From assembly GCF_000738435.1 (NCBI RefSeq), contig NZ_CP003984.1:1488001-1552000 (forward strand): a stretch of DNA of 64,000 nucleotides, read 5' to 3'. The stretch is from Planktomarina temperata RCA23 (GTDB taxonomy: Bacteria; Pseudomonadota; Alphaproteobacteria; Rhodobacterales; Rhodobacteraceae). Position 1 is the first letter of the stretch. Each line of letters starts with the position of its first letter. Below the pieces are notes generated by a model that did no database searches, was not told where the DNA came from, and saw nothing but the letters and a program-made list of their open reading frames with translations. Below are positions 20,113 to 57,545 of this stretch, piece by piece. A program made the position numbers and the translations under genes.

Positions 20113-20312
20113 AGATTTACAGATTTTTGACCGACGACGATTCGTCTCAGTTTTGCCATAAAGTGACCGAAGCCCTGTCCAAAGGATGGGAGCTTTATGG
20201 CGATCCGACCTATGCCCATGATGCAACCGTTGGAGTCATGCGCTGCGGCCAGGCGGTCGTGAAGGAGATTGAAGGGGCGTATAGCCCTGAGATGAAACTG
20301 GGAGCGCAATAA
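20109..20312 (+). CDS. DUF1737 small protein
   Basis: 67 residues with a GTG start overlapping the mcl2 stop; its own stop overlaps the mch ATG (TAATG). The motifs KIYRFLTDDDSSQFCHKV and LSKGWELYGDPTYA match DUF1737. Its position between mcl2 and mch, with overlaps on both sides, suggests a fixed stoichiometric role with these enzymes. No function is known. Confidence 0.82.
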
Positions 20313-21337
20313 TGAAGACCAATGCAGGGTTGTTTTTTGAGGATTATTGTGTCGGACAGGTCATAGATCATGCAGTCCCGCGGACGGTGGGGGGCGGTGA
20401 ACGCGCGCTCTATCATGCGCTTTATCCGGCGCGCCACGCGCTCTATTCCTCCGATAGTTTTGCGCAAAGCTGCGGCCTGCCTCAAAGCCCGCTGGATGAT
20501 CTCATCGCGTTTCATGTGGTTTTTGGCAAAACGGTGCCGGATATCTCATTAAACGCCGTGGCCAATTTGGGCTATGCGGAGGCGCGCTGGCTGCGGCCTG
20601 TTTATCCCGGCGATACGCTGCGCGCGCGCTCTACCGTGATTGGTTTGAAGCAAAACTCAAGCGGCAAAACCGGCGTGGTTTGGGTGCGCAGTGAAGGGTT
20701 CAACCAGGCAGATGAGATGGTGATATCTTTCGTGCGTTGGGTCATGGTGCGCAAGAGGGACGAAGCGGCCCCTGCACCACAAACCGTTGTGCCGGAGCTT
20801 GAGAAGGCTGTGTTAGCATCGGAGTTGATCGTGCCCGATGGGTTGAGCTTTGCCGGATATGATACTGGTTTAGCAGGAAGTTCCTATCTCTATAGCGACT
20901 ATAATATTGGCGAGGTGATCGACCACGTTGATGGGGTCACCCTGTCGGAAGCCGAGCATATGATGGCCACGCGCTTGTGGCAAAATACGGCGAAAGTCCA
21001 TTTCGATGCCACCGCCCGGCCGGATGGTGCACGGTTGATTTACGGCGGGCATGTGATCTCCATGGCGCGGGCATTGTCCTTCAATGGCCTGGGCAATGTG
21101 CAAATGCTGGCGGCGATCAATGGGGGAGCCCATGCCAATCCATGTTTTGCGGGGGACACGCTGCGCGCTTGGAGTGAGGTGCTGGACAAGGCGGAAACTC
21201 GTGATCCCTCCGTTGGTGCGTTGCGTTTGCGGTTGGTGGCGCAGAAGGGTTCGACGCCCCATCTGCGCGGGGATGACGGAAAGTATCATAGCAATGTGTT
21301 GCTGGATCTCGACTATTGGGCCTTTATCCCGCGGTAA
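20312..21337 (+). CDS. mch: Mesaconyl-CoA hydratase (MaoC-like)
   Basis: 341 residues, the length of the double hot-dog Mch of Rhodobacter. It has two MaoC-like halves; the first opens with LFFEDYCVGQVIDHAVPRTV. Further motifs are YPARHALYSSDSFAQ and WLRPVYPGDTLRARS. It interconverts mesaconyl-C1-CoA and beta-methylmalyl-CoA in the ethylmalonyl-CoA pathway for C2 assimilation. It is third in mcl2-DUF1737-mch; sdhC follows after 177 nt that contain paired operators. Confidence 0.9.
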   Translation: MKTNAGLFFEDYCVGQVIDHAVPRTVGGGERALYHALYPARHALYSSDSFAQSCGLPQSPLDDLIAFHVVFGKTVPDISLNAVANLGYAEARWLRPVYPGDTLRARSTVIGLKQNSSGKTGVVWVRSEGFNQADEMVISFVRWVMVRKRDEAAPAPQTVVPELEKAVLASELIVPDGLSFAGYDTGLAGSSYLYSDYNIGEVIDHVDGVTLSEAEHMMATRLWQNTAKVHFDATARPDGARLIYGGHVISMARALSFNGLGNVQMLAAINGGAHANPCFAGDTLRAWSEVLDKAETRDPSVGALRLRLVAQKGSTPHLRGDDGKYHSNVLLDLDYWAFIPR

Positions 21338-21355: not shown

Positions 21356-21390
21356 TTTTGTGACCACAAAAATTTTTCGTGATCACAAAA
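21356..21390 (+). promoter_or_regulatory. Paired GntR-type palindromes upstream of sdhC
   Basis: Two sites of the type TTTGTGA-TCACAAA: TTTGTGACCACAAA at 21357-21370 and TTCGTGATCACAAA at 21376-21389, with centres 19 bp apart. The same palindrome is paired upstream of sucC and single at the start of the gntR gene at 42914. They are probably operators of that regulator. Confidence 0.7.
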
Positions 21391-21514
21391 GCCAAAAAAT
21401 CGACTGTTAACGCCCAGACTGCGGTAATTTGCCCGTCAAAACTGTGGCCTTCGGGGCTTGATCATGGCATGAACGGGCTAACTCATGATTTAGACAGGCT
21501 GAGAAGGACATATT

Positions 21515-21898
21515 ATGGCTGATGTAAATCGCGGCAATCGCCCGTTATCTCCTCATCTGACGATCTACCGTCCTCAAATGACTTCGATTTCTTCGATATT
21601 TGTGCGGATCACTGGCAACGCGCTTTTGGCCGCGACGCTATTATTGATCGCTTGGCTCTTGGCGGCATCCACCAGCGCGGCGGCCTTTGAATGGGTGCAG
21701 TGCGTGATCACAAGTTGGTTTGGCGATCTGGTGTTTCTTCTGTCCCTCTGGGCGCTTTGGTACCACATGCTTGGCGGGTTGCGCCATTTGATTTGGGACA
21801 CCGGCCGCGGGTTGGAGTTGAAAACCGCCGAGCGTATGGGCTGGATGATGATCATCGGGTCGCTTCTGCTCACAGCTTTCACAGTAATATGGCTATAA
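21515..21898 (+). CDS. sdhC: Succinate dehydrogenase cytochrome b556 subunit
   Basis: 127 residues. The N-terminus RPLSPHLTIYRPQMTSISSI and the heme ligand region YHMLGGLRHLIWDTGRG (His) are diagnostic. There are three membrane helices. It anchors complex II with SdhD and binds heme b and quinone. First gene of sdhCDA-x-B. Confidence 0.96.
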   Translation: MADVNRGNRPLSPHLTIYRPQMTSISSIFVRITGNALLAATLLLIAWLLAASTSAAAFEWVQCVITSWFGDLVFLLSLWALWYHMLGGLRHLIWDTGRGLELKTAERMGWMMIIGSLLLTAFTVIWL

Positions 21899-21910
21899 GG
21901 AGCGCGCAGC

Positions 21911-22282
21911 ATGGCTTTTTTGACTGATAGAAAACGTGCAAGCGGCCTTGGCGCCGCAAAAACCGGCACAGAGCATTTTTGGGGTATGACCATTTCCTCG
22001 GCGGCACTGCTCATCCTCGTGCCGCTTTTTGTCTTCACCGTGGGGCCCATGATTGGGCAAGATTATGAGGCGGTCACAGCCTATTTTGCCCGCCCATTCC
22101 CCGCATTGGTGGCGCTATTGACCTTTGTGGTGGCATTGCTGCATTTCAAAAACGGGGTGACCGTTTTGATTGAGGACTATGTGCATGGCCTTGCCCGCAA
22201 GGTCTGGATTATTATCATGACATGTGTGTCCTACGCGGCCATTGCTGCGGCTATTTTCGCCATCGCGCGCCTCGCCCTTTAA
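21911..22282 (+). CDS. sdhD: Succinate dehydrogenase membrane anchor subunit
   Basis: 123 residues. It starts MAFLTDRKRASGLGAAKTGT, typical of alphaproteobacterial SdhD, and has three helices; the conserved heme-side segment is LLHFKNGVTVLIEDYVHG. It starts 12 nt after sdhC and ends 18 nt before sdhA. Confidence 0.94.
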   Translation: MAFLTDRKRASGLGAAKTGTEHFWGMTISSAALLILVPLFVFTVGPMIGQDYEAVTAYFARPFPALVALLTFVVALLHFKNGVTVLIEDYVHGLARKVWIIIMTCVSYAAIAAAIFAIARLAL

Positions 22283-22300
22283 GTTTCGGAGACCATAACT

Positions 22301-24106
22301 ATGGCTGCTTATGAATATGAAATCCATGATTTTGATGTTGTGGTGGTTGGGGCGGGAGGCGCTGGATTGCGCGCCACACTCGGCATGGCCGAACAGGGAT
22401 TGCGCACGGCCTGTGTCACCAAAGTTTTCCCGACCCGGTCCCATACAGTGGCCGCTCAGGGAGGTATTGCGGCAAGTCTGGGCAACATGGGCCCCGACAG
22501 TTGGCAGTGGCATATGTATGACACGGTCAAAGGCTCGGACTGGCTTGGCGATACAGATGCCATGGAGTACCTCGCCAGAGAAGCCCCCAAGGCGGTCTAT
22601 GAGCTGGAACATTACGGCGTGCCTTTTTCGCGCACTGAGGCTGGAAAAATCTATCAACGCCCCTTTGGTGGCCATACAACAGAATTTGGCGAAGGCCCGC
22701 CAGTGCAGCGCACCTGTGCCGCGGCCGACCGGACAGGTCATGCGATTTTGCATACGCTTTACGGCCAGTCTCTGAAAAATAACGCGGAATTCTACATCGA
22801 ATATTTCGCCATTGACTTGGTGATGTCAGACGACGGTGTTTGCCAAGGGGTGGTGTGCTGGAAGCTTGACGATGGCACAATGCATGTGTTCAACGCCAAA
22901 ACGGTCGTATTGGCCACAGGCGGCTATGGGCGTGCCTATTTCAGCGCCACTTCTGCGCATACCTGCACCGGAGATGGCGGCGGCATGGTCGCGCGGGCGG
23001 GTTTGCCGCTTCAAGATATGGAGTTCGTACAGTTCCATCCAACCGGCATATATGGCTCGGGCTGTTTGATCACCGAAGGCGCGCGCGGCGAGGGCGGATT
23101 TCTGAGCAATTCGCAAGATGAGCGTTTCATGGAGCGCTATGCGCCGAACTATAAGGATTTGGCGCCGCGCGATTATGTCTCGCGCTGTATGACGATGGAA
23201 ATTCGCGAAGGGCGTGGTGTGGGGCCGGAGGGGGATCACATCTACCTCAACCTCAGTCATCTGCAGCCCGAAGCCCTGGCGGAGCGCCTGCCGGGGATTT
23301 CAGAATCTGCCAAGATTTTTGCAGGTGTTGACGTGACCAAAGAGCCCATCCCTGTTCTTCCGACGGTGCACTACAATATGGGCGGTATTCCAACGAATTT
23401 CTGGGGCGAAGTGTTGAACCCAACGGCCAAAGATCCCAATGCCACTGTGCCCGGTCTTATGGCCGTGGGCGAGGCGGGCTGTGCCTCCGTACATGGGGCC
23501 AACCGTTTGGGCTCAAACTCGCTGATAGATCTGGTGGTCTTCGGCCGCGCTGCCGCGATCCGTGCCGGCAAAACCGTCGATGCGGCCGCGCCAGCGGCGG
23601 CGATGAACATGGCTTCGGTGGACAAAGCCTTTGACCGCTTTGATGGGCTGCGCCATGCGGCGGGACATTTGCCCACCGCAGAGCTGCGGTTAGAAATGCA
23701 AAAAACCATGCAGGCGGATGCGGCGGTGTTCCGGACCTCGAAGACCTTGGCAGAGGGGGTCGATAAGATGACTACTGTGGCCGATAAAATGAGCGATATC
23801 AAAGTCACGGATCGCAGCCTGGTGTGGAATTCTGATCTTATGGAAACCCTGGAGCTCACCAATTTGATGCCCAACGCCATGGCGACCATTGTGGGGGCAG
23901 AAGCGCGCAAAGAAAGCCGCGGTGCGCATGCGCATGAGGATTTCACCGAGCGTGACGATGACAATTGGCGCGTGCATACCATCGCTCGGGTGGATGGATC
24001 AAAGGTTGATTTGAGCCACCGGCCGGTGATCACCGAAAGGCTGACCACCGAAGAAGAAGGCGGCATCTCGCTGGCGCAGATTGCACCGAAAGTGAGAACT
24101 TTCTGA
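22301..24106 (+). CDS. sdhA: Succinate dehydrogenase flavoprotein subunit
   Basis: 601 residues. The FAD site is [20 protein letters not shown]. Covalent flavin attachment is at the His in [20 protein letters not shown], and active-site segments are [11 protein letters not shown] and [20 protein letters not shown]. It oxidises succinate to fumarate. The stop overlaps the ATG of a small secreted-protein gene (TGATG). Confidence 0.98.
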
Positions 24107-24408
24107 TGCGGCCGCTGGGGTGTTGTGCGGCGGTGGCTGTGGCCTTGATGGGCGGGGGCGCTCTGGCTGAGCTGTCCCAATCCCAACTTGCGGCTCTGTC
24201 GGTTCTATCCCCATTGGCGCAAGAACAGTTGGATCGAAAGAACGGGCAGGCGCTTGCGGAATGTATGGTTTTAGCCGCCGAGGCGGAGGAAGTATCCCGC
24301 ATCGCCGCTTTTGCTGGCATGGCGCCCAGCCCGGTCATTATTGACCTGGCCAATGAAATTATCCAGCGCCCGGCGGTGCTGAGCTGTTTGACTGAAAAGC
24401 TGTCTTAG
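24106..24408 (+). CDS. Small secreted protein between sdhA and sdhB
   Basis: 100 residues. A signal peptide ([18 protein letters not shown]) ends at an ALA-E cleavage site. The mature part is helical (LSQSQLAALSVLSPLAQEQL) and has two Cys (ECMV and LSCL) that could form a disulfide. No family is recognised. It starts within the sdhA stop (TGATG), so it is translated from the sdh transcript. sdhB begins 97 nt later. A periplasmic role linked to complex II is inference. Confidence 0.75.
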   Translation: MRPLGCCAAVAVALMGGGALAELSQSQLAALSVLSPLAQEQLDRKNGQALAECMVLAAEAEEVSRIAAFAGMAPSPVIIDLANEIIQRPAVLSCLTEKLS

Positions 24409-24505
24409 GGGATGCGGGTTTTGGCATATCACCCGATGAGACAGTTGACGTCGCTTGTTGATAGGCTGCACGGCGCTGTTTGCGTCTGCTCTGTGGAGAA
24501 ATAAT

Positions 24506-25285
24506 ATGGTACAACTGACACTCCCGAAAAATTCCCGCATCACCCGCGGTAAGGTCTGGCCGAAACCGGAAGGGGCGAAAAACCTGCGGGTTTTCAAGAT
24601 TTATCGCTGGAACCCGGATGATGGCAAAACCCCGCAGGTGGATACCTATTTCGTAGATATGGACACATGCGGCCCTATGGTTTTGGATGCTTTGATCAAG
24701 ATCAAGAGTGAAATTGATCCGACCTTGACCTTTCGCCGGTCCTGCCGTGAGGGGATTTGTGGCTCCTGTGCAATGAATGTTGACGGGGTGAATACGCTGG
24801 CCTGTATCTATGGCATGGATGAGATCAAGGGGGATGTGAAGATCTATCCGCTGCCGCATATGCCGGTTGTAAAGGATCTGATCCCAGACTTGACGCATTT
24901 CTATGCCCAGCATGCCTCGATCATGCCCTGGCTTGAGACTAAAACCAACCGGCCTGCCAAAGAATGGTTGCAGTCGATCGAGGATCGCAAAAAGCTTGAT
25001 GGGCTGTATGAATGTGTGATGTGCGCCTGCTGCTCGACCTCTTGCCCGTCCTATTGGTGGAATGGGGATCGCTATCTCGGCCCGGCGGCTTTGTTGCACG
25101 CCTATCGCTGGATTATTGACAGCCGCGATGAGGCCACGGGCGAGCGTTTGGACAATCTGGAAGACCCGTTCAAACTCTACCGCTGCCACACGATTATGAA
25201 TTGCACCAAGACCTGTCCCAAAGGGCTCAATCCAGCCAAATCCATCGCCTCAATCAAAGAAATGATGGTCGAACGCCGGGTCTAG
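24506..25285 (+). CDS. sdhB: Succinate dehydrogenase iron-sulfur subunit
   Basis: 259 residues from the ATG at 24506, which has GGAGA upstream; an in-frame start at 24455 has no support. The 2Fe-2S ligands are in [15 protein letters not shown]. The 4Fe-4S and 3Fe-4S cysteines are in [17 protein letters not shown] and [17 protein letters not shown]. It carries electrons from SdhA to quinone. Last gene of the sdh operon. Confidence 0.98.
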
Positions 25286-42841: not shown

Positions 42842-42900
42842 ATGGTGCTTATGGCGCGGCGCGGGCTGGCCATGCCCATTGGTGTTTGACAGGCGCGGCA

Positions 42901-42914
42901 AATGTGATCACAAA
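42901..42914 (+). promoter_or_regulatory. GntR-type palindrome at the gntR start codon
   Basis: AATGTGATCACAAA, the same palindrome as upstream of sdhC and sucC, ends on the first base of the gene. A TTGACA lies 10 nt upstream (42886-42891), so the site overlaps the promoter. Binding here would give autorepression. Confidence 0.65.
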
Positions 42915-43564
42915 TGCATATGGCAGAAAAATTGCAAGACAGCTATCTGGCCGCACATGACCAGCTTTACCGCACATTGCGCATGCGGATCATGTACGGC
43001 GAAATGCGCCCGGGGCAGGCGATAACCCTGCGGGGCGTGGCCGAGGAATTCGGAGTCTCTGTGACCCCGGTGCGCGAGGCGTTGAAGCGGCTGGCGGCAG
43101 AGGGGGCTCTGAGCATTTCGGTGAGCGGGCGGTTCCAAACCCCGGCTCTGACCAATGACCGGATTGAGGAGCTTGCTGCTCTGCGGGCGTTGATCGAGGT
43201 GGAATTGGCCACACGGGCCTTGCCGCGGGCGCATATGGCTCTGGTTGAGCGGTTACAAACGATAAATAACGCCATTTCTGTGGCTGTGGCGAAGGCGGAT
43301 GCTGTCACTTACATACGAACAAATCTCGAGTTTCACCGCACGCTCTACTTGCGGGCCCAGGCTCCGGCGATGCTGGCAACGGTCGAGACAGTGTGGCTGC
43401 AAATGGGCCCAACGATGCGGGCGCTCTATGGCCGGTTGCAACGTAAGGATCCGCCAATGCATCACCGCCTGATTCTTGCGGCTTTGAAAGCTGGCGATGA
43501 ACCGGGCCTTCGGGTGGCTGTGCGGGCGGATGTCACCCAGGGGCTGCGCATGTTGGCGCGCTGA
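42914..43564 (+). CDS. GntR/FCD family transcriptional regulator, candidate TCA-cycle repressor
   Basis: 216 residues; a second ATG at 42920 is possible, and no Shine-Dalgarno is visible because the operator occupies that position. An N-terminal winged HTH at about 15-80 (ITLRGVAEEFGVSVTPVREA then LKRLAAEGAL) and an all-helical FCD effector domain at about 90-205 (with metal-site type NLEFHRTLY and HHRLI) place it in the FadR subgroup. Its operator-like palindrome recurs upstream of sdhC and sucC, so it probably regulates succinate dehydrogenase and 2-oxoglutarate/succinyl-CoA genes. The effector is likely a carboxylate but is not shown. Confidence 0.88.
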   Translation: MHMAEKLQDSYLAAHDQLYRTLRMRIMYGEMRPGQAITLRGVAEEFGVSVTPVREALKRLAAEGALSISVSGRFQTPALTNDRIEELAALRALIEVELATRALPRAHMALVERLQTINNAISVAVAKADAVTYIRTNLEFHRTLYLRAQAPAMLATVETVWLQMGPTMRALYGRLQRKDPPMHHRLILAALKAGDEPGLRVAVRADVTQGLRMLAR

Positions 43565-43850: not shown

Positions 43851-45239
43851 TTAGCTGTGAATTGCCCCATCGCCACAGGCCAAAGCCGCCTCGCGCACGG
43901 CTTCGGAATAGGTGGGATGGGCGTGGCAGGTACGCGCCAAATCTTCAGCGGCGGCGCCAAATTCCATTGCCACGCAGACCTCATGGATCAGATCTCCCGC
44001 CATTGGGCCGATGATATGCGCGCCAAGAATGCGATCGGTTGTTGCGTCTGCTAGGATTTTCACAAAGCCATCAGCCGCAAAATTTGCTTTTGCGCGGCCA
44101 TTGCCCATGAAGGAAAACTTGCCGGCCTTGTAGGCTCGGCCTGCCTCTTTCAATTGCTCTTCGGTTTGGCCAACGGTGGCGACCTCTGGATGGGTGTAGA
44201 TCACACCGGGGATTACATCATAGTTCACATGGCCTGCTTGCCCTGCCAAGATTTCCGCCACGGCCATGCCTTCATCTTCGGCCTTATGGGCCAGCATGGG
44301 GCCCGTTATGGCGTCGCCAATGGCATAAATGCCGGGAACAGAGGTTGCATAATGGGCATCGGTTTGGATTTGACCGCGCGCGGTGAGGGTGACGCCAAGC
44401 GCGTCCAATCCGAGGCCGTCGACGTAGGGACGCCGGCCCGTGGCGACAAGCACCACATCCGCCTCCAGCTCATGCGTGGTGTCTTTTTTGCGTTTGACAT
44501 AGCTCACAGTGGCTTTGCCTTTTTTCACTGCAACGGATTGCACGGCTGCGCCCATGGTGAACTTGAGGCCTTGTTTCTTGAGAATCCTGAGGAAGGTTTT
44601 TTGCACCTCACCGTCCATACCGGGGGTGATGTCGTCCAGAAATTCTATCACCTCAACCTCGGTGCCCAGGCGCGCATAGACAGATCCCAATTCCAATCCA
44701 ATAACACCAGCGCCGATCACCACCATTTTGCTCGGAATTTTGTCCAACGCCAGGGCACCTGTTGATGTCACGACGGTTTTCTCATCAATTTCAATTCCGG
44801 GCAGGCTGGAGGGTTCGGAGCCAGAAGCGATGATGATGTGTTTGGCCTGATGGATGTCATCACCAACTTTGACCTGACCGGCCGCAGGAATGCTGCCCCA
44901 GCCTTTCAGCCAGTCAATTTTGTTTTTCTTGAATAGAAACTCAATGCCCTTGGTATTGCCGTCAATCACCTCGGTTTTATACCCCTGCATCTTCGCCCAA
45001 TCGACCTTGGGATCTTCGGCAATCAAACCCATTTTGGCAAAATTATGTTGCGCTTCATGCAATTGGTGGCTGGCATGTAGCAGGGCTTTGGAGGGGATAC
45101 AGCCGACATTCAGGCAGGTCCCCCCAAGCGTGTCACGCCCCTCGACACAGGCGGTTTTGAGACCGAGCTGGGCGCAGCGAATAGCGCTGACATAGCCACC
45201 GGGGCCGGAGCCAATCACAATTACATCATAAGAAGCCAT
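43851..45239 (-). CDS. lpdA: Dihydrolipoyl dehydrogenase (E3)
   Basis: 462 residues. FAD site [20 protein letters not shown], redox cysteines in [20 protein letters not shown] site [20 protein letters not shown] and the C-terminal catalytic HAHPTYSEA (His). It reoxidises lipoamide of 2-oxoglutarate dehydrogenase. It ends the leftward suc gene set, 154 nt after sucB. Confidence 0.97.
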
Positions 45240-45393
45240 AAGAAAGGTCCTTTATTTTCAGGGCGGGCCCGGGAGCCCATGGTTGTATTTCTGTCCCAAC
45301 CTCAACCTAAGTGAGGCCGGGCAAAGATCATAACGGACAAATGTCCAAAATGAACACTATGGCCACCGCCGGTGACGTTGGATCTCTTCCGGA

Positions 45394-46890
45394 TTAGAGA
45401 TCCATCAACAGGCGGCGCGGGTCTTCTAAGGCTTCTTTGACGCGCACGAGGAAGGTGACGGCGCCCTTGCCGTCCACGACCCGGTGATCATAGCTCAAAG
45501 CCAGATACATCATGGGGCGAATAACCACCTCACCGTTGATCGCCATCGGACGGTCTTGGATCTTATGCATGCCCAATATGCCCGATTGCGGCGGATTGAG
45601 AATAGGCGAAGACATCAGCGAGCCGTAGACACCTCCGTTGGAGATGGTGAAGGTGCCGCCCTGCATTTCCGCCATGGACAATTTACCATCACGCGCGCGG
45701 GCGCCTTTTTCTGCAATGGCTTTTTCGATCTCGGCAAAGGACAAGGAATCCGCATCACGGATCACCGGAACCACCAATCCTGTTGGCGTGCCCGCGGCGA
45801 TGCCCATGTGGACGAAATTTTTATACACGATATCTGTGCCATCAATTTCCGAGTTGACCTCTGGCACCTCGCGCAGCGCATGGCAGCAGGCCACTGTGAA
45901 AAAAGACATAAAGCCCAGTTTTACGCCATGTTTCTTTAAAAACAGATCTTTATATTCATTACGCAGGGCCATGACCTCTGTCATGTCGACTTCATTGTAA
46001 GTGGTCAACATGGCCGCAGTGTTCTGGCTGTCCTTGAGACGCCGCGCAATGGTTTGGCGCAGGCGTGTCATCTTCACGCGCTCTTCGCGCGCGGCATCAT
46101 CTGCAGGAACCGCCGCGCGAATGGGCGTGGCTGGCGGGATCGGAGCGGCCTGGGGCGCGGCTGCGGCGAGGGCTTTTTGAACGTCTTGTTTCATCACACG
46201 GTTATCTTTGCCTGTTGCGGTCACATCATTTCGGTTGAGGCCGGCCTCGGACATGAGCTTTTTCGCTGATGGGGCATCTTCGACATCATGGCTTTTTGCA
46301 GCGGCGGTGGCGGCGGCCTCCGCTGGGGCTGGCTTGCTGGAGATGTCCCCGCCAATCACAGCCAATTGTCCGCCCGCTTGCACGGTGCTGCCTTCGGCGG
46401 CAAGGATTTGCCCCAAAACACCGGCGGCCGGTGCGGGCACTTCCACACTCACCTTATCGGTTTCCAATTCACAGAGCATTTCATCCTGCGCCACCGTATC
46501 GCCTGGCTTTTTGTACCAGGTCGAGACTGTGGCCTCCGTGACAGATTCGCCCAAGACCGGTACCATCACTGCGACGGTTTGCGCCGCTGGCGCAGGTGCA
46601 CTCTTGGCGGCTGTCGCCGTGGCTGCGGCTGTGGCGGGTCCAGAGGCTGCGGCACCCTCGTTGATTTGTGCCAATAGCGCTTCGGTGCTGACGGTCGCGC
46701 CTTCCGCGGCAACGATTTCCGCCAATGTGCCCGCCACGGGGCTGGGCACTTCAACGGTGACCTTGTCAGTTTCCAGCTCACAGAGCATATCGTCCACGGC
46801 AACTTGATCGCCAGGTTTTTTGAACCAGGTCGCGACAGTGGCCTCGGTCACAGATTCGCCCAAAGTGGGAACACGAACTTCGGTGGCCAT
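45394..46890 (-). CDS. sucB: 2-oxoglutarate dehydrogenase E2 (dihydrolipoyl succinyltransferase), two lipoyl domains
   Basis: 498 residues, longer than the one-lipoyl enzyme of E. coli. Lipoyl domain 1 (about 3-76) has Lys43 and domain 2 (about 107-180) has Lys146, each in the ELETDKV context. Ala/Pro linkers separate them. An E3-binding domain is at about 205-245 ([14 protein letters not shown]), and the catalytic core ends with SYDHRVVDG (His). Four nt separate it from sucA. Confidence 0.96.
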
Positions 46891-46894
46891 GATT

Positions 46895-49852
46895 TTATCC
46901 TTTCAACGTAAGCGCTTCATCGACGAGCGCGGCTTGTTGTGATTTGTGTATAGAGGCAAGCCCGGTTGCAGGGGAGGCCGAGGTGGCCCGTCCGACATAG
47001 GCCGGGCGGCTGTATTTGGCACCAATGCGCGTGAGGACCCATTCAATATTTGGCTCAATAAAGGTCCAGGCACCCTGGTTTTTCGGCTCTTCCTGGCACC
47101 AGACGATTTCTGCCTGTTTGAAGCGTTCCAATTCGTTGACCATTGAGATCGCGGGGAAAGGGTAGAATTGCTCGACCCGCAGCAGATAGATATCCTCTAT
47201 GCCACGCGCGTCGCGTTCTTCGAGCAGATCGTAATAGACTTTGCCCGAACAGATCACCACACGTTTGATCTTTTTATCCGCAACCAACTTTGTCTCGGAA
47301 TTGCCATATTGTGCATCATCCCACAGCACCCGGTGAAAGCTGGATCCGGTGGTGAATTCTGCGCGCTTTGACACTGCCATCTTGTGACGCAACAGAGATT
47401 TTGGCGTCATGAGAACCAAGGGTTTTCGGAAGGTGCGGTGAATTTGCCGGCGCAAGATATGGAAATAATTGGCCGGGGTGGTGCAATTGGCGACGATCCA
47501 ATTGTCATGGCCGCACATTTGCAAAAAGCGCTCTAGGCGGGCGGAGCTGTGCTCTGGGCCTTGGCCTTCAAACCCATGGGGCAGCAGCATCGTGAGACCG
47601 GACATGCGCAGCCACTTGCTTTCCCCGCTGGAGATGAATTGATCAAACATGATCTGCGCGCCATTGGCAAAATCGCCAAATTGCGCTTCCCACATGACCA
47701 AAGCATTGGGCTCGGCCAAGCTGTAACCATATTCAAAGCCCAAGACCGCATATTCGGAAAGCATCGAATCGATGACCTCATACTGGCCCTGTCCTTCACG
47801 GATATTGTTGAGCGGGTAGTAGCGCTCCTCGGTATCCTGATTGACCAGGCCAGAATGGCGGTGGCTAAAGGTGCCGCGTGTACTGTCTTGCCCGGCGAGC
47901 CGCACTGGATGGCCCTCTGTCAGCAAGGAGCCAAAGGCCAAAGCCTCGCCTGTGGCCCAATCGATCCCTTCGCCGCTGCTCAGCGCTTTGGATTTAGCAT
48001 CCAGCATACGCTGCACGGTTTTATGGATTGGAAAGCCTTCGGGCACCTGGCAAAGAGTGCGGGACACGTCGTCAAAAGTCTCTTCGGACATGGCTGTGGC
48101 GCCGCGTTGGTATTCTTCACCGTGGCGGTTCATTTTCGACCAGCGCCCATCGAGCCAATCGGCCTTATTGGGCTTATAGTCCTTACCCGCTTCAAATTCC
48201 GCATTCAAAAATGATTGAAAGCTGGCCTTCATATCTTCGATTTCGCCCTCTGGGATCAAGCCATCACGCACAAGCCGCTCGGTGTAGAGGGTGAGGGTGG
48301 TTTTCTGCGTTTTGATCTTTTTGTACATCAGCGGATTGGTGAACATCGGCTCATCGCCTTCGTTATGACCAAAGCGGCGATAGCAAATAATATCGACAAC
48401 CACGTCTTTTTTGAATTTTTGACGGAATTCCGTGGCGACGCGGGCGGCATGGACCACGGCCTCTGGATCATCGCCATTGACGTGGAAAATAGGGGCTTCG
48501 ACCATCAGAGCAATGTCAGTGGGATAGGGAGAGGAGCGGCTGAAATGCGGCGCGGTGGTGAACCCGATTTGGTTGTTCACCACGATGTGCATGGTGCCGC
48601 CGGTTTTATGCCCTTTCAGGCCCGACAGTCCAAAGCCTTCGGCCACAACACCCTGACCGGCAAAGGCGGCATCCCCATGCAGCAGGATCGGCAGAACGCT
48701 GGTACGCTCTGTGTCGTGATTTTGATCTTGTTTCGCACGCGCTTTGCCCAAGACCACCGGATTGACGGCCTCAAGGTGGCTGGGGTTGGCGGTGAGCGAC
48801 AAATGCACAGAATTGCCATCAAATTCACGATCAGAGGAGGCGCCGAGGTGGTATTTCACATCGCCCGATCCATCCACATCCTCAGGCTTGAACGAGCCGC
48901 CTTGGAATTCGTTAAAGATCGCCCGGTAGGGTTTGGCCATGACATTGGCCAGCACCGACAGGCGGCCCCGGTGGGGCATGCCAATGATGATGTCTCTTAC
49001 GCCAAGGGCGCCGCCACGTTTGATGATTTGCTCCATCGCTGGAATGAGGCTTTCGCCGCCATCAAGCCCAAAGCGTTTGGTGCCCATGTATTTGACATGG
49101 AGGAATTTTTCGAAGCCCTCCGCCTCCACCAATTTGTTGAGAATCGCCTTGCGACCCTCGCGGGTGAAGCTGATTTCTTTGCCATAACCTTCAATGCGCT
49201 CTTTGAGCCAGGAGGATTCTTCGGGGTCAGAAATATGCATATATTGCAGGGCGAAAGTGCCACAATAGGTACGGCGAACAATTTCCAAGATCTCACGCAT
49301 AGAGGCGAATTGCAGCCCCAAAACATTGTCGAGAAAGATCGGCCGGTCCATATCGGCCTCGGTGAAACCATAGCTGGCTGGATCCAATTCGGGGCGGGGG
49401 TTATCTTCGCGCATGCCCAAAGGATCCAAATCCGCCGCCAAATGGCCGCGAATACGGTAGGCACGGATCAGCATCAGGGCGCGCAGACCGTCGAGCACTG
49501 CGCGTTTGAGTTGCTCCTCATTTAATGACACGCCCGTTTCAGCGGCCTTGTTGCTGATTTTCTTGCCCGCATCGCGCGCCTCGGCTGCCGCTGGGTATTC
49601 GCCGGTAAAGGCGGATGTGAGATCATCCATTGGCATGGGCGGCCAATCGCTGCGTGCCCAAGAGGGGCCTGAGGCTTTGGCGCGCACATCCCTGTCTTCA
49701 TCGCCCATTGCCGCAAAGAAATCAGCCCATTGCGCGTCAACTGACACCGGATCGGCGCTGTAGCGGGCGTGCATTTGCTCGAGATATTCCGCGTTATGGC
49801 CCTGCATGAAGCTTGAGGCATGGAATTGATCGTTTGCAGACTGATCGGTCAT
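46895..49852 (-). CDS. sucA: 2-oxoglutarate dehydrogenase E1
   Basis: 985 residues. Thiamine-diphosphate motif [14 protein letters not shown] with the later NNQIGFTT. N-terminal [18 protein letters not shown] is the segment for E2 contact, and the C-terminal part has [20 protein letters not shown]. It decarboxylates 2-oxoglutarate. Its ATG overlaps the stop of a 47-codon leader frame (ATGA). Confidence 0.98.
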
Positions 49853-49992
49853 AGGATGACACCTTGGTAAGGAACAAAAACAGGGTTTGAACGTGTCGCG
49901 GCAAGGAGGGCCCTGGGCCTTTCCTTGCCGCCGTGGGTGAGCTCAAGCGCGGGGCGTGATCGTCTAACATCAAATTTGAGTTTAAGCGTCAT
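49849..49992 (-). CDS. Possible 47-residue leader peptide between sucD and sucA
   Basis: ATG at 49992, 16 nt after the sucD stop, with GGGAG upstream; its stop overlaps the sucA ATG (ATGA). The sequence is basic (TLKLKFDVRRSRPALELTHG) and has no recognised family. The overlap suggests translational coupling to sucA. It contains a strong stem-loop (49900-49929). Confidence 0.4.
   Translation of the reverse strand: MTLKLKFDVRRSRPALELTHGGKERPRALLAATRSNPVFVPYQGVIL
49900..49929 (-). promoter_or_regulatory. Stem-loop between sucD and sucA
   Basis: GGCAAGGA and TCCTTGCC form the outer stem, and GGCCC/GGGCC the inner one. No T-run follows at once, so it is not a clear terminator. It may set the sucD/sucA ratio by partial termination, processing or coupling. 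Confidence 0.5.
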
Positions 49993-50008
49993 ACCCGCCG
50001 CTCCCATA

Positions 50009-50893
50009 TTACGCGTCGATCGCGGCCAAAACAGCTTCGCCAAGGCTGGCGGGGCTCTCTGCGACGACAATACCTGCCATTTTCATGGCTTCGATCTTAT
50101 CTTCTGCGCCGCCTTTGCCGCCGGCGACAATCGCGCCCGCGTGGCCCATTCTGCGGCCTGCGGGAGCTGTACGGCCAGCGATGAAGCCTGCGACGGGTTT
50201 CCAGCGGCCTTTTTTCTTTTCATCAGCCAGGAATTGCGCGGCTTCCTCTTCAGCTGAGCCGCCAATTTCGCCGATCATGATGATGGATTGGGTTTCGTCA
50301 TCTGCGAGGAACCACTCGAGCACATCGATATGCTCTGTGCCTTTGATGGGATCGCCGCCGATGCCGACGCATGTGGATTGGCCCAAACCGACATCCGTGG
50401 TTTGCTTGACAGCTTCATAGGTCAAAGTGCCTGAGCGGGAGACCACGCCGACAGAGCCGCGGCGGTGAATATGGCCGGGCATAATACCGATTTTGCAAGC
50501 GTCGGGTGTGATCACCCCAGGGCAATTGGGTCCGATTAACCGGCTTGAGGAGCCTTCAAGCGCCCGCTTGACGCGCATCATGTCCAAGACCGGAATGCCT
50601 TCTGTGATGCAGACGATGACTTCCATTTGCGCATCAATCGCTTCGAGAATGGAGTCCGCGGCAAAGGGGGGCGGGACATAGATGACAGAGGCATTGGCTT
50701 CAGTGACCGATTTGGCCTCATGCACAGAGTTAAAAACCGGCAGATTTAAATGGGTTTGCCCGCCCTTGCCGGGGGTGACCCCACCGACCATTTTCGTGCC
50801 ATAGGCAATGGCTTGTTCTGAGTGAAATGTGCCCTGGCTGCCGGTGAATCCCTGGCAGATGACTTTGGTGTTTTCGTCGATAAGTACGGCCAT
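50009..50893 (-). CDS. sucD: Succinyl-CoA synthetase alpha subunit
   Basis: 294 residues. CoA site [34 protein letters not shown], and the phospho-His in [15 protein letters not shown]. It makes ATP or GTP from succinyl-CoA with SucC. 79 nt after sucC. Confidence 0.97.
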
Positions 50894-50972
50894 TCGGCGC
50901 TCCTCGTTCGTATGTTGGCAGCGGCACCTTGGGCCGGCTGCAAAATTCCAATTCAGCGGTCGCAGGGCCGCG

Positions 50973-52169
50973 TTACAGCGCCTTTACAGCAGCAACGATT
51001 TTCTCGGCGCCATCGCGAAGATTGTCGGCCGCGATCACATTGAGGCCACTTTCGGTGATGATCCGCTTGCCTTCATCGACATTGGTGCCTTCCAAACGAA
51101 CGACCAACGGCACGGAAAGCCCTACTTCTTTCACCGCAGATACCACCCCATCAGCGATCACGTCACAGCGCATGATCCCGCCGAAGATATTGACCAAAAT
51201 ACCTTTGACCTGCGGATCGGAGGTGATGATCTTGAAGGCTTCGGTCACTTTTTCCTTTGTGGCGCCGCCGCCGACATCCAAGAAGTTCGCCGGTTCAGCA
51301 CCATAGAGTTTGATAATGTCCATCGTGGCCATGGCCAGACCCGCACCGTTGACCATGCAACCGATTTCGCCATCCAAGGCGATATAGTTCAGGTCATATT
51401 TCGACGCTTCCAGTTCACGGGCATCCTCCTCGGTGGTGTCGCGCAGCTCAGCGATATCTGCATGGCGGTACACCGCATTGCCATCGAAGCCAATTTTAGC
51501 ATCCAAGACCTTCAAATCCCCACCGTCGGTGATGATCAAAGGGTTGATTTCCAGCATCTCCATATCTTTTTCGACAAAGGCTTTGTAGAGCTGGCCCATG
51601 AGTTTAACGCATTGCTTGATCTGCGCGCCTTTGAGGCCCAGAGAAAAGGCGATGCGGCGGCCATGAAAGCCTTGATAGCCAGTGGCGGGATCAACGGAGA
51701 AGGAGAGAATTTTTTCCGGTGTCGCCTCTGCCACCTCTTCAATGTCCATCCCGCCCTCGGTGGAGGCCACAAAGGAGATGCGGCTAGTCTGACGGTCCAC
51801 TAGGATCGCGAGATAAAATTCTTTTTCAATGCCGGAGCCATCTTCGATATAAATTCGGTTGACCAATTTTCCCGCAGGGCCAGTTTGCTTGGTCACAAGT
51901 GTCCGGCCCAGCATGGCTTTGGCTTCTTTTTCCGCTTCATCGACCGACCGCGCAAGGCGCACACCACCGGCAGCGCCGGCGTCAGCTTCGATAAAGCTGC
52001 CTTTTCCGCGCCCACCAGCGTGGATTTGAGCTTTCACAACCCACAAGGGACCATCCATTTCGGACGCTGCCGCTTTGGCGGCATTGGCGCTGAGGACTAT
52101 GCGCCCGTCGCTGACGGGTGCGCCGTAGCTGCGCAAAAGGGCTTTGGCTTGATATTCATGAATATTCAT
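50973..52169 (-). CDS. sucC: Succinyl-CoA synthetase beta subunit
   Basis: 398 residues. ATP-grasp domain begins [32 protein letters not shown] and the C-terminal [12 protein letters not shown]-type segment (here [20 protein letters not shown]) are diagnostic. First gene of sucC-sucD-sucA-sucB-lpdA. Two GntR-type palindromes lie 90-130 bp upstream. Confidence 0.97.
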
Positions 52170-52261: not shown

Positions 52262-52298
52262 ATTTGTGATCACAGAAAAAAAATCTGTGATCACAAAA
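52262..52298 (-). promoter_or_regulatory. Paired GntR-type palindromes upstream of sucC
   Basis: TTTGTGATCACAGA at 52263-52276 and TCTGTGATCACAAA at 52284-52297, with centres 21 bp apart (two helical turns). Together they also form a perfect inverted repeat around an A-run. The same sites precede sdhC and the gntR gene at 42914. Confidence 0.75.
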
Positions 52299-55880: not shown

Positions 55881-57545
55881 TCATGCGGCCTTTCTCGCTT
55901 GCGGGTACAGAAGGGCTTTGAAGGGCGCCAATCCGAGCCGGCGATAGGCTGCCAGAAAGCTTTCACTCCGATCTATGCGCAGCTGCAGATACCCCAGCAG
56001 CAAGCGCTCAATTGCCGGGACTATCTCATCGGCGCCGAAACCGGGGCCCGCACGGGTGCCAATTTCAGCGTCAGCACCCGCATCGCCGCCAAGAGTGATT
56101 TGATAGCTTTCAACACCGGCTTTCTCGAGGCCCAAAATCCCGATGTGCCCAATATGGTGATGGCCGCAAGCATTGATGCAGCCTGAGATCTTGAGTTTCA
56201 ACGGCCCAATGTCATGTTCCAGCTTTAGCGCGTGAAAGCGGGTTGCGATCTGCTGGGCCACCGGAATGGAGCGCGCGGTCGCCAAGGCGCAGTAATCCAT
56301 GCCGGGGCAGGCGATGAGATCCGAGATCAACCCAATATTGGCGGTCGCCAAATCCGCCTGACGCAGCGCGTGATAGACTTGGGGGAGATCCGCGCGATGC
56401 ACATGGGGCAATATCACGTTTTGCTCGTGAGAAATGCGCAGTTCTTCATGGCCGAAATCGCGCGCGATGTCCGCCAAAGCGCGCATTTGCGCCGCGCTGG
56501 CGTCCCCCGGCGTCGTACCGGGTTTTTTCAAACTCACAGAGACAATAGCATAGCCGGGCACCTTATGAGGGGTGATGTTCGTGTCCAACCAAGCGCGAAA
56601 CGCGGGGGTGTGTGACGTGGTGCTGAGTGCCTCAACTGGCGGGTTTGCCGGTTTGAAATTTGGGGGTTCGAAATGCCGCTCAATCTCTTTTAAAATATGC
56701 ATATCCTCCCCCGTAAACAAAGGGTTGATCTTGGAAAACTGCGCCTCAATCCTCTGTTTGATATCGTCTATTCCATGCTCATGGGTGGTGATCTTTATGC
56801 GCGCTTTATATTTATTATCGCGCCGACCAAGCAGGTTGTAGGTGCTGACAACGGCTTCCAAATAGGGCAAGATATCTTCCAAAGGGACAAAGGGCGACAG
56901 GGTCTTGCCAATCATGGGCGTGCGCCCCAAACCTCCACCGACGATCACTTCAAACCCGCGCAGCCCATCTTGCAAGGTCATGCGCAGACCAATGTCATGC
57001 GCCTGAGTGACGGCGCGGTCATGGGGGCTGCCTGTGACAGCAATCTTGAATTTGCGAGGCAAAAATTGGAACTCTGGATGATCGGTTGACCATTGGCGGA
57101 TCAGCTCAGCTATGGGGCGCGGATCGGCAATCTCATCGGCCGCGGCCCCTGCGAAATGATCTGCTGTGACATTTCGGATGGTGTTGCCACTGGTTTGAAT
57201 GGCATGCATCTCCACGTCCGCCAAAGCCTGCAAGATGTCGGGCACGTCCTCGAGTTTTGGCCAGTTAAATTGAATATTTTGCCGTGTGGTGAAATGGCCA
57301 TAGCCTTTGTCCCAACGCTCCGCGATCATCGCAAGTTGGCGCATTTGGCGGCTGTTGAGGGTGCCATAAGGAATGGCGACCCGCAGCATATAAGCGTGCA
57401 GCTGCAAGTATAGCCCATTCATGAGGCGCAGGGGCTTGAACTCGTCTTCGCTGAGACTGCCATCTAAACGCCGGGTGACCTGGGCGCGAAATTGCGCCAC
57501 GCGCTCGGCGACGAATTTGTGATCAAAATTTGAATAGTGATACAT
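55881..57545 (-). CDS. cysI: Sulfite/nitrite reductase hemoprotein (siroheme)
   Basis: 554 residues. The siroheme-4Fe4S site is CPGMDYCALATARSIPVA and later KISGCINACGHHHIGHIG (CxxxC). Ferredoxin-type half-domains are at the N-terminus (YGHFTTRQNIQFNWPKLEDV). It reduces sulfite to sulfide; the single-subunit form is ferredoxin-dependent. It lies between DUF2849 and the deleted cysH. Confidence 0.94.
   Translation of the reverse strand: MYHYSNFDHKFVAERVAQFRAQVTRRLDGSLSEDEFKPLRLMNGLYLQLHAYMLRVAIPYGTLNSRQMRQLAMIAERWDKGYGHFTTRQNIQFNWPKLEDVPDILQALADVEMHAIQTSGNTIRNVTADHFAGAAADEIADPRPIAELIRQWSTDHPEFQFLPRKFKIAVTGSPHDRAVTQAHDIGLRMTLQDGLRGFEVIVGGGLGRTPMIGKTLSPFVPLEDILPYLEAVVSTYNLLGRRDNKYKARIKITTHEHGIDDIKQRIEAQFSKINPLFTGEDMHILKEIERHFEPPNFKPANPPVEALSTTSHTPAFRAWLDTNITPHKVPGYAIVSVSLKKPGTTPGDASAAQMRALADIARDFGHEELRISHEQNVILPHVHRADLPQVYHALRQADLATANIGLISDLIACPGMDYCALATARSIPVAQQIATRFHALKLEHDIGPLKLKISGCINACGHHHIGHIGILGLEKAGVESYQITLGGDAGADAEIGTRAGPGFGADEIVPAIERLLLGYLQLRIDRSESFLAAYRRLGLAPFKALLYPQARKAA

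Follow-up and report, generated by a model that had tools for sequence, protein, structure and literature searches.

The gene at position 42914 of the window (by which we mean the whole 64,000-nucleotide stretch of Planktomarina temperata RCA23 DNA that was analysed) probably encodes an AkgR-type activator of the sdh and suc operons. The protein would act through pairs of palindromic operators upstream of these operons and would repress its own gene through a single operator, a reading drawn from sequence that we hold with considerable confidence. The preliminary description had proposed an operator common to gntR, sdh and suc, and this is well supported: the pairs are conserved together with the regulator orthologue in family genomes. 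The coordinates of all features are collected in Table 1.

Table 1. Operators, promoter element and genes of the system, with positions in the window
Feature	Position	Strand	Remarks
Distal operator of sdhC	21357..21370	.	TTTGTGACCACAAA, 1 mismatch to the 14-mer
Proximal operator of sdhC	21376..21389	.	TTCGTGATCACAAA, 1 mismatch; 19 bp from distal
sdhCDAB operon (target)	21515..25285	+	sdhC: Pfam and TIGR02970
TTGACA, putative -35 box of gntR	42886..42891	+	17 bp before operator 10-mer
Single operator at gntR start	42901..42914	.	AATGTGATCACAAA, 2 mismatches; overlaps expected -10 region
gntR/FCD regulator gene, AkgR-type	42914..43564	+	216 aa; Pfam GntR and FCD
sucC-sucD-sucA-sucB-lpd gene run (target)	43851..52169	-	sucC, sucA, sucB: NCBIfam equivalogs
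Proximal operator of sucC	52263..52276	.	TTTGTGATCACAGA, 1 mismatch
Distal operator of sucC	52284..52297	.	TCTGTGATCACAAA, 1 mismatch; 21 bp from proximal

Palindromes and regulator in the window

Five copies of a 14-bp palindrome had been described in the window, one at the gntR start and a pair each upstream of sdhC and sucC with centre spacings of 19 bp and 21 bp. All five were present, above chance, and both spacings were correct. No copy is perfect over 14 bp; three of the sites have an exact inner 10-mer TGTGATCACA and four an intact 8-mer GTGATCAC, the distal sdhC site having GTGACCAC instead. When up to three mismatches were allowed, the window contained 10 matches against a mean of 2.9 in shuffled sequences, a number reached by 1 of 100 shuffles. 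Exact TGTGATCACA was found three times against 0.10 expected, which none of 100 shuffles reached. A variant palindrome whose arms are separated by one base was also tried, and its three window matches were at chance level. The earlier statement that no other good match is intergenic in the window also stood: the sole other match with two mismatches, at 57516, is inside an ORF (55881-57545), in a check that was complete for matches with up to two mismatches and placed those with three in part. The palindrome said to lie at the gntR start codon does lie there, but it overlaps that codon only by its last base, which is the A at 42914. Another ATG in the same frame, at 42920, is possibly the true start.

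Among the target genes, sdhD, sdhA, sdhB, sucD and lpd were assigned by position and by reading of their translations. The suc gene run is presumed from strand and spacing to be one operon. About 20 bp separate the end of a mesaconyl-CoA hydratase-like (MaoC) gene (20312-21337) from the sdhC operator pair that follows.

The regulator was confirmed as a GntR/FCD protein, with both Pfam domains over their cut-offs (GntR, 1.7e-16; FCD, 2.9e-16). It has the FadR-type make-up, an N-terminal GntR winged helix followed by a C-terminal FCD domain, and no NCBIfam model reached its cut-off. Thirteen FCD proteins are encoded in the window's genome, 12 besides this one, and the best listed other match to it there is 28% identical. 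The nearest solved GntR structure by sequence is that of Escherichia coli McbR (PDB 4p9f; E 5.4e-24), a likeness of sequence that implies no claim of orthology; the targets of McbR differ from sdh and suc. FCD proteins hold a metal and a carboxylate by an Asp-His-His-His set. In an alignment of 25 orthologues (the window's and those from 24 of 80 named loci), the FCD half was largely invariant, and N137, H141, H184 and D206, on which the metal site was placed by eye, were invariant in all 25. In this by-eye placement two of the four metal-site residues look replaced (Asn, His, His, Asp), so that the pocket may be altered; a predicted structure of the protein (pLDDT 65, pTM 0.39) was too poor to place these residues. 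Our guess is that the effector is a TCA-cycle carboxylate.

AkgR of Rhodobacter sphaeroides, which we take to be RSP_0981, is reportedly named in the 2015 mBio paper of Imam and colleagues. According to the accessible part of one source, the GntR protein RSP_0981 is the predicted regulator of sucCD, sdh and 2-oxoglutarate dehydrogenase (PMC4344238, Imam et al. 2015), and in the accessible part of another AkgR is an activator with GTGATCAC among its sites (PMC6365646). As far as these texts go, the window's system resembles theirs in protein family, target set and GTGATCAC motif, and differs in belonging to another genus. Operators containing GTGATCAC precede sdh and suc both in the window and across the family, and the pairs stand before sdhC and the sucC-D-A-B-lpd run, which match the predicted RSP_0981 targets. 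The proposed identity with RSP_0981 is based on the target set and on the motif.

Conservation and near exclusivity of the operator pairs

To be a shared operator, the motif should keep its position in relatives, a check proposed with the preliminary description; it was conserved before sucC, before sdhC and at the gntR start. Two samples were examined. The first consisted of named relatives, the best 80 of 449 confirmed ones, headed by Rhodobacteraceae IMCC1909 and Planktomarina drafts. Enough upstream sequence for counting the gntR site was available in 79 of the 80, and a site with at most two mismatches, between 300 bp before and 30 bp after the start, was present in 67 of them and absent from 12, so that the operator described at the gene's own start recurs beyond the window. 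Two sites were found in all seven loci of these best 80 that contained sucC with its upstream region. Sites upstream of the other genes of the run were found for sucA in 0 of 10, sucD in 0 of 8, sucB in 0 of 10 and lpd in 1 of 13; sdhC was absent from all of the named-relative loci examined.

The second sample comprised 60 family genomes, nearly one per genus. An orthologue of the regulator (at least 62%, the next relatives reaching at most 41%) was found in 52 of the 60, counting G024, where the gene is split over two contigs. Sites with at most two mismatches within 500 bp upstream occurred in 25 of 52 genomes for gntR, 29 of 58 for sdhC and 39 of 58 for sucC, while 95 permuted half-site palindromes gave at most 1, 1 and 2 genomes, respectively. 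Five control palindromes were found in 0 of 58 genomes each at sdhC and sucC. We relied on the permuted palindromes and on four of these five, the fifth containing CTAG, which is rare in bacteria. A pair was scored when two 10-mers, each with at most one mismatch, lay 19-22 bp apart. By this definition, 49 of 50 orthologue-bearing genomes had a pair before sucC, compared with 1 of 8 that lack the orthologue; for sdhC the counts were 42 of 51 and 0 of 7. The spacing was exactly 21 bp in 40 of the 42 sdhC pairs and 47 of the 50 sucC pairs.

The agreement between regulator and sites has exceptions. The sdhC pair was missing in 9 of the 51 genomes with an orthologue, and the gntR-start operator (core with at most one mismatch) was present in 34 of 52 orthologues and absent from 18; both gaps count against the AkgR-type reading. 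In the other direction, G018, a draft that is 91% complete, has a sucC pair (L195) and no regulator orthologue was found in it; sdhC likewise was not found there, and the exception is probably due to missing sequence. In the window's genus, at least one sdhC site was present in 16 of 20 genomes (10 of the 20 being at least 90% complete), and a pair with 19-20 bp spacing in four of 20, the window's included, so that the 19-bp spacing seen here is a local variation. In 22 of 52 family genomes no more than 25 kb separates the orthologue from sdhC or sucC, in keeping with the adjacent RSP locus numbers. The co-occurrence p-values disregard kinship and were not taken as proof. In a quick SucC tree (51 rows), genomes without gntR cluster, with five changes on the best tree and one forced by supported branches; significance was out of reach for a paired sign test on this tree.

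The pair was then sought as a unit, with 21-bp spacing and up to three mismatches, in 43 of 61 genomes, namely 36 of the 53 with an orthologue (the window's included, and chosen partly for sites already found there) and 7 of the 8 without, G018 being left out. It was present in 35 of the 36 and in none of the 7; in the one orthologue-bearing genome without it, G050, the pair before sucC is spaced at 20 bp. Across the 43 genomes, 66 of 75 pair places were no more than 400 bp upstream of sdhC or sucC; the 66 include one in G028 that overlaps the true pair. Eight of the nine remaining places have three mismatches. At up to two mismatches, 63 of 64 pairs were at sdhC or sucC. The other one, with 1 mismatch, is at 978266 of the window's genome, in an ORF that is transaldolase-like by its translation, and was treated as chance. 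A reversed-pattern control gave one place in the 43 genomes (G031), with a pattern that contains CTAG. A class-wide scan of 144 genomes at up to two mismatches matched three, the window's, one family member and one place in G205 of another family; it says little on the family, because only three of the 144 belong to it.

Operator position and mode of action

The position of the operators relative to promoter-like boxes differs between gntR and its targets. Upstream of gntR, 33 of 34 operator-bearing family genomes have a [TG]TGAC box that starts 16-19 bp ahead of the operator 10-mer, 26 of them at exactly 17 bp; in the window the box is a perfect TTGACA. If a 17-bp spacer follows this box, the -10 hexamer would be at 42909-42914, inside the operator, and transcription would start near the second ATG at 42920. 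The gntR mRNA may be leaderless, since in the window the operator abuts the start codons and leaves no room for a ribosome-binding sequence. At sdhC, 34 of 49 operator-bearing genomes have a [TG]TGAC box 66-69 bp downstream of the proximal operator; the window's sdhC has none at this distance and has TTGATC at 21458, 80 bp downstream, instead. At sucC, no [TG]TGAC box was found at a fixed place, only a weakly conserved TTT at +56, and the pair precedes the ATG by about 105-165 bp. All distances to transcription starts were estimated by placing the start 36 bp beyond the first base of the -35 box. The sdhC pair thus appears to be well upstream of the likely core promoter and the sucC pair is probably upstream of its own. 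About 13 of 42 aligned relatives (e.g., G005, G022, G024, G027, G033, G048 and G051) also have a GCGCCAAAAAACCGCGCC-like element between operator and promoter of sdhC, at about +32 to +47 as counted from the proximal operator.

An activator is usually placed upstream of the core promoter, which suits the pairs at sdhC and sucC, while a single site overlapping the -10 region is the usual place of a repressor and fits the gntR promoter. In our favoured reading, the FCD-type GntR protein encoded at 42914 would correspond in Planktomarina to AkgR and would bind each TGTGATCACA palindrome as one dimer. Two dimers would sit side by side at sdhC and sucC, about two helical turns apart and about 85-130 bp upstream of the estimated transcription start, and activate the genes for 2-oxoglutarate dehydrogenase, succinyl-CoA synthetase and succinate dehydrogenase, that is, the lower TCA cycle. 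At gntR, a single dimer would cover the -10 region and limit synthesis of the regulator.

A more far-reaching proposal, whose chances we put slightly short of even, is that throughout the Rhodobacteraceae AkgR works in two modes, as a switch that serves little else than the 2-oxoglutarate-to-fumarate half of the TCA cycle. Phase-locked 21-bp pairs would mediate activation, a single -10 operator of a leaderless mRNA would mediate autorepression, and the conserved FCD domain with its changed metal site (Asn, His, His, Asp) would sense a TCA-cycle acid, e.g., 2-oxoglutarate or succinate. Apart from this proposal, the results indicate that a regulator devoted to half of the TCA cycle and known from R. 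sphaeroides is kept in most of the sampled family genera, a marine lineage included. The rigid operator geometry would yield a simple rule, a pair for activation and a single site for autorepression, and the clean motif could serve regulon prediction in uncultured relatives.

The regulator had earlier been described as a repressor. This part of the description fits gntR's own promoter, where the operator overlaps the expected -10 region, and is not supported for sdh and suc. FCD regulators are often repressors, and one that represses sdh, suc and itself until released by a carboxylate was considered. We regard such a repressor as unlikely, because a wide gap separates the sdhC pair from the likely promoter box downstream of it, the sucC pair stands at the distance from its ATG given above, and the R. 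sphaeroides protein with the GTGATCAC motif is called an activator in the accessible part of PMC6365646.

The palindromes might also be bound by another protein, be it a CRP/FNR-type factor or a different FCD protein, of which the genome encodes 12. CRP half-sites (TGTGA...TCACA) are similar to those found here, but the latter abut and lack the CRP spacer. The 13 FCD proteins of the genome offer other candidates, yet none among the listed matches comes closer to the 42914 protein than the low identity given above, and the motif tracks gntR across 58 genomes and sits at gntR's own start, which makes another binder quite improbable. That the palindromes act in some other way and are linked to gntR by shared ancestry only, as would be compatible with loss of gene and sites in a few events, is hardly credible given that the pair is nearly confined to the regions upstream of sdhC and sucC and stands at a near-fixed distance from a promoter-like box at sdhC, as does the single site at gntR.

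Related systems and sites elsewhere in the genome

The regulator family and its target set are not new: in the accessible part of the 2015 study they are predicted for R. sphaeroides (PMC4344238). The paired 21-bp geometry was not found described in the literature searched, a search that did not cover the mBio paper said to name AkgR; the paired architecture and the -10-overlapping gntR site are thus described here as candidate features read from sequence. Two other regulators bear comparison with the AkgR-type protein, within what the accessible texts state. PS417_07240 of Pseudomonas simiae is likewise GntR-like with a proposed GTGATCAC operator and is 32% identical to AkgR, but it is the proposed regulator of a deoxyribonate oxidation cluster (PMC6365646). 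CceR of R. sphaeroides, a LacI-family protein listed as RSP_1663, has a regulon that includes succinate dehydrogenase and 2-oxoglutarate dehydrogenase; both are also among the predicted targets of the GntR regulator. The protein family and motif of CceR differ (PMC4344238).

Outside the window, the 12 exact 10-mers and four further 14-mers with one mismatch were all (16 of 16) inside ORFs of at least 80 aa. The bare 8-mer GTGATCAC occurs 114 times in the genome, with none of the first 30 outside an ORF. There were 37 out-of-window 14-mers with at most two mismatches, and eight were not wholly inside an ORF (L298, L299, L302, L303, L305, L307, L357 and L362), including one that spans an ORF junction. 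The GTGATCAC core is not intact in any of the eight. Neighbours of five (L298, L299, L302, L303 and L305) were covered by family scans. No site examined was found to belong to the further targets suggested earlier (gltA, acn, icd and aceA), in a search that went by motif match and not by gene name.

Two of these sites are perfect copies of TTTGGGATCCCAAA (L303:2445-2458 and L302:2037-2050). One separates the gene for an FCD-GntR paralogue from an aldehyde dehydrogenase gene that diverges from it, and the other precedes a gene for an NMT1-like solute-binding protein. With one base different per half-site, TTTGGGATCCCAAA looks like the operator of a sister FCD regulator. At L299:745-758, an intergenic TTGGTGACCACAAA is flanked by two divergent ORFs, neither of which has a Pfam match, and its inner GTGACCAC is identical to that of the distal sdhC site.
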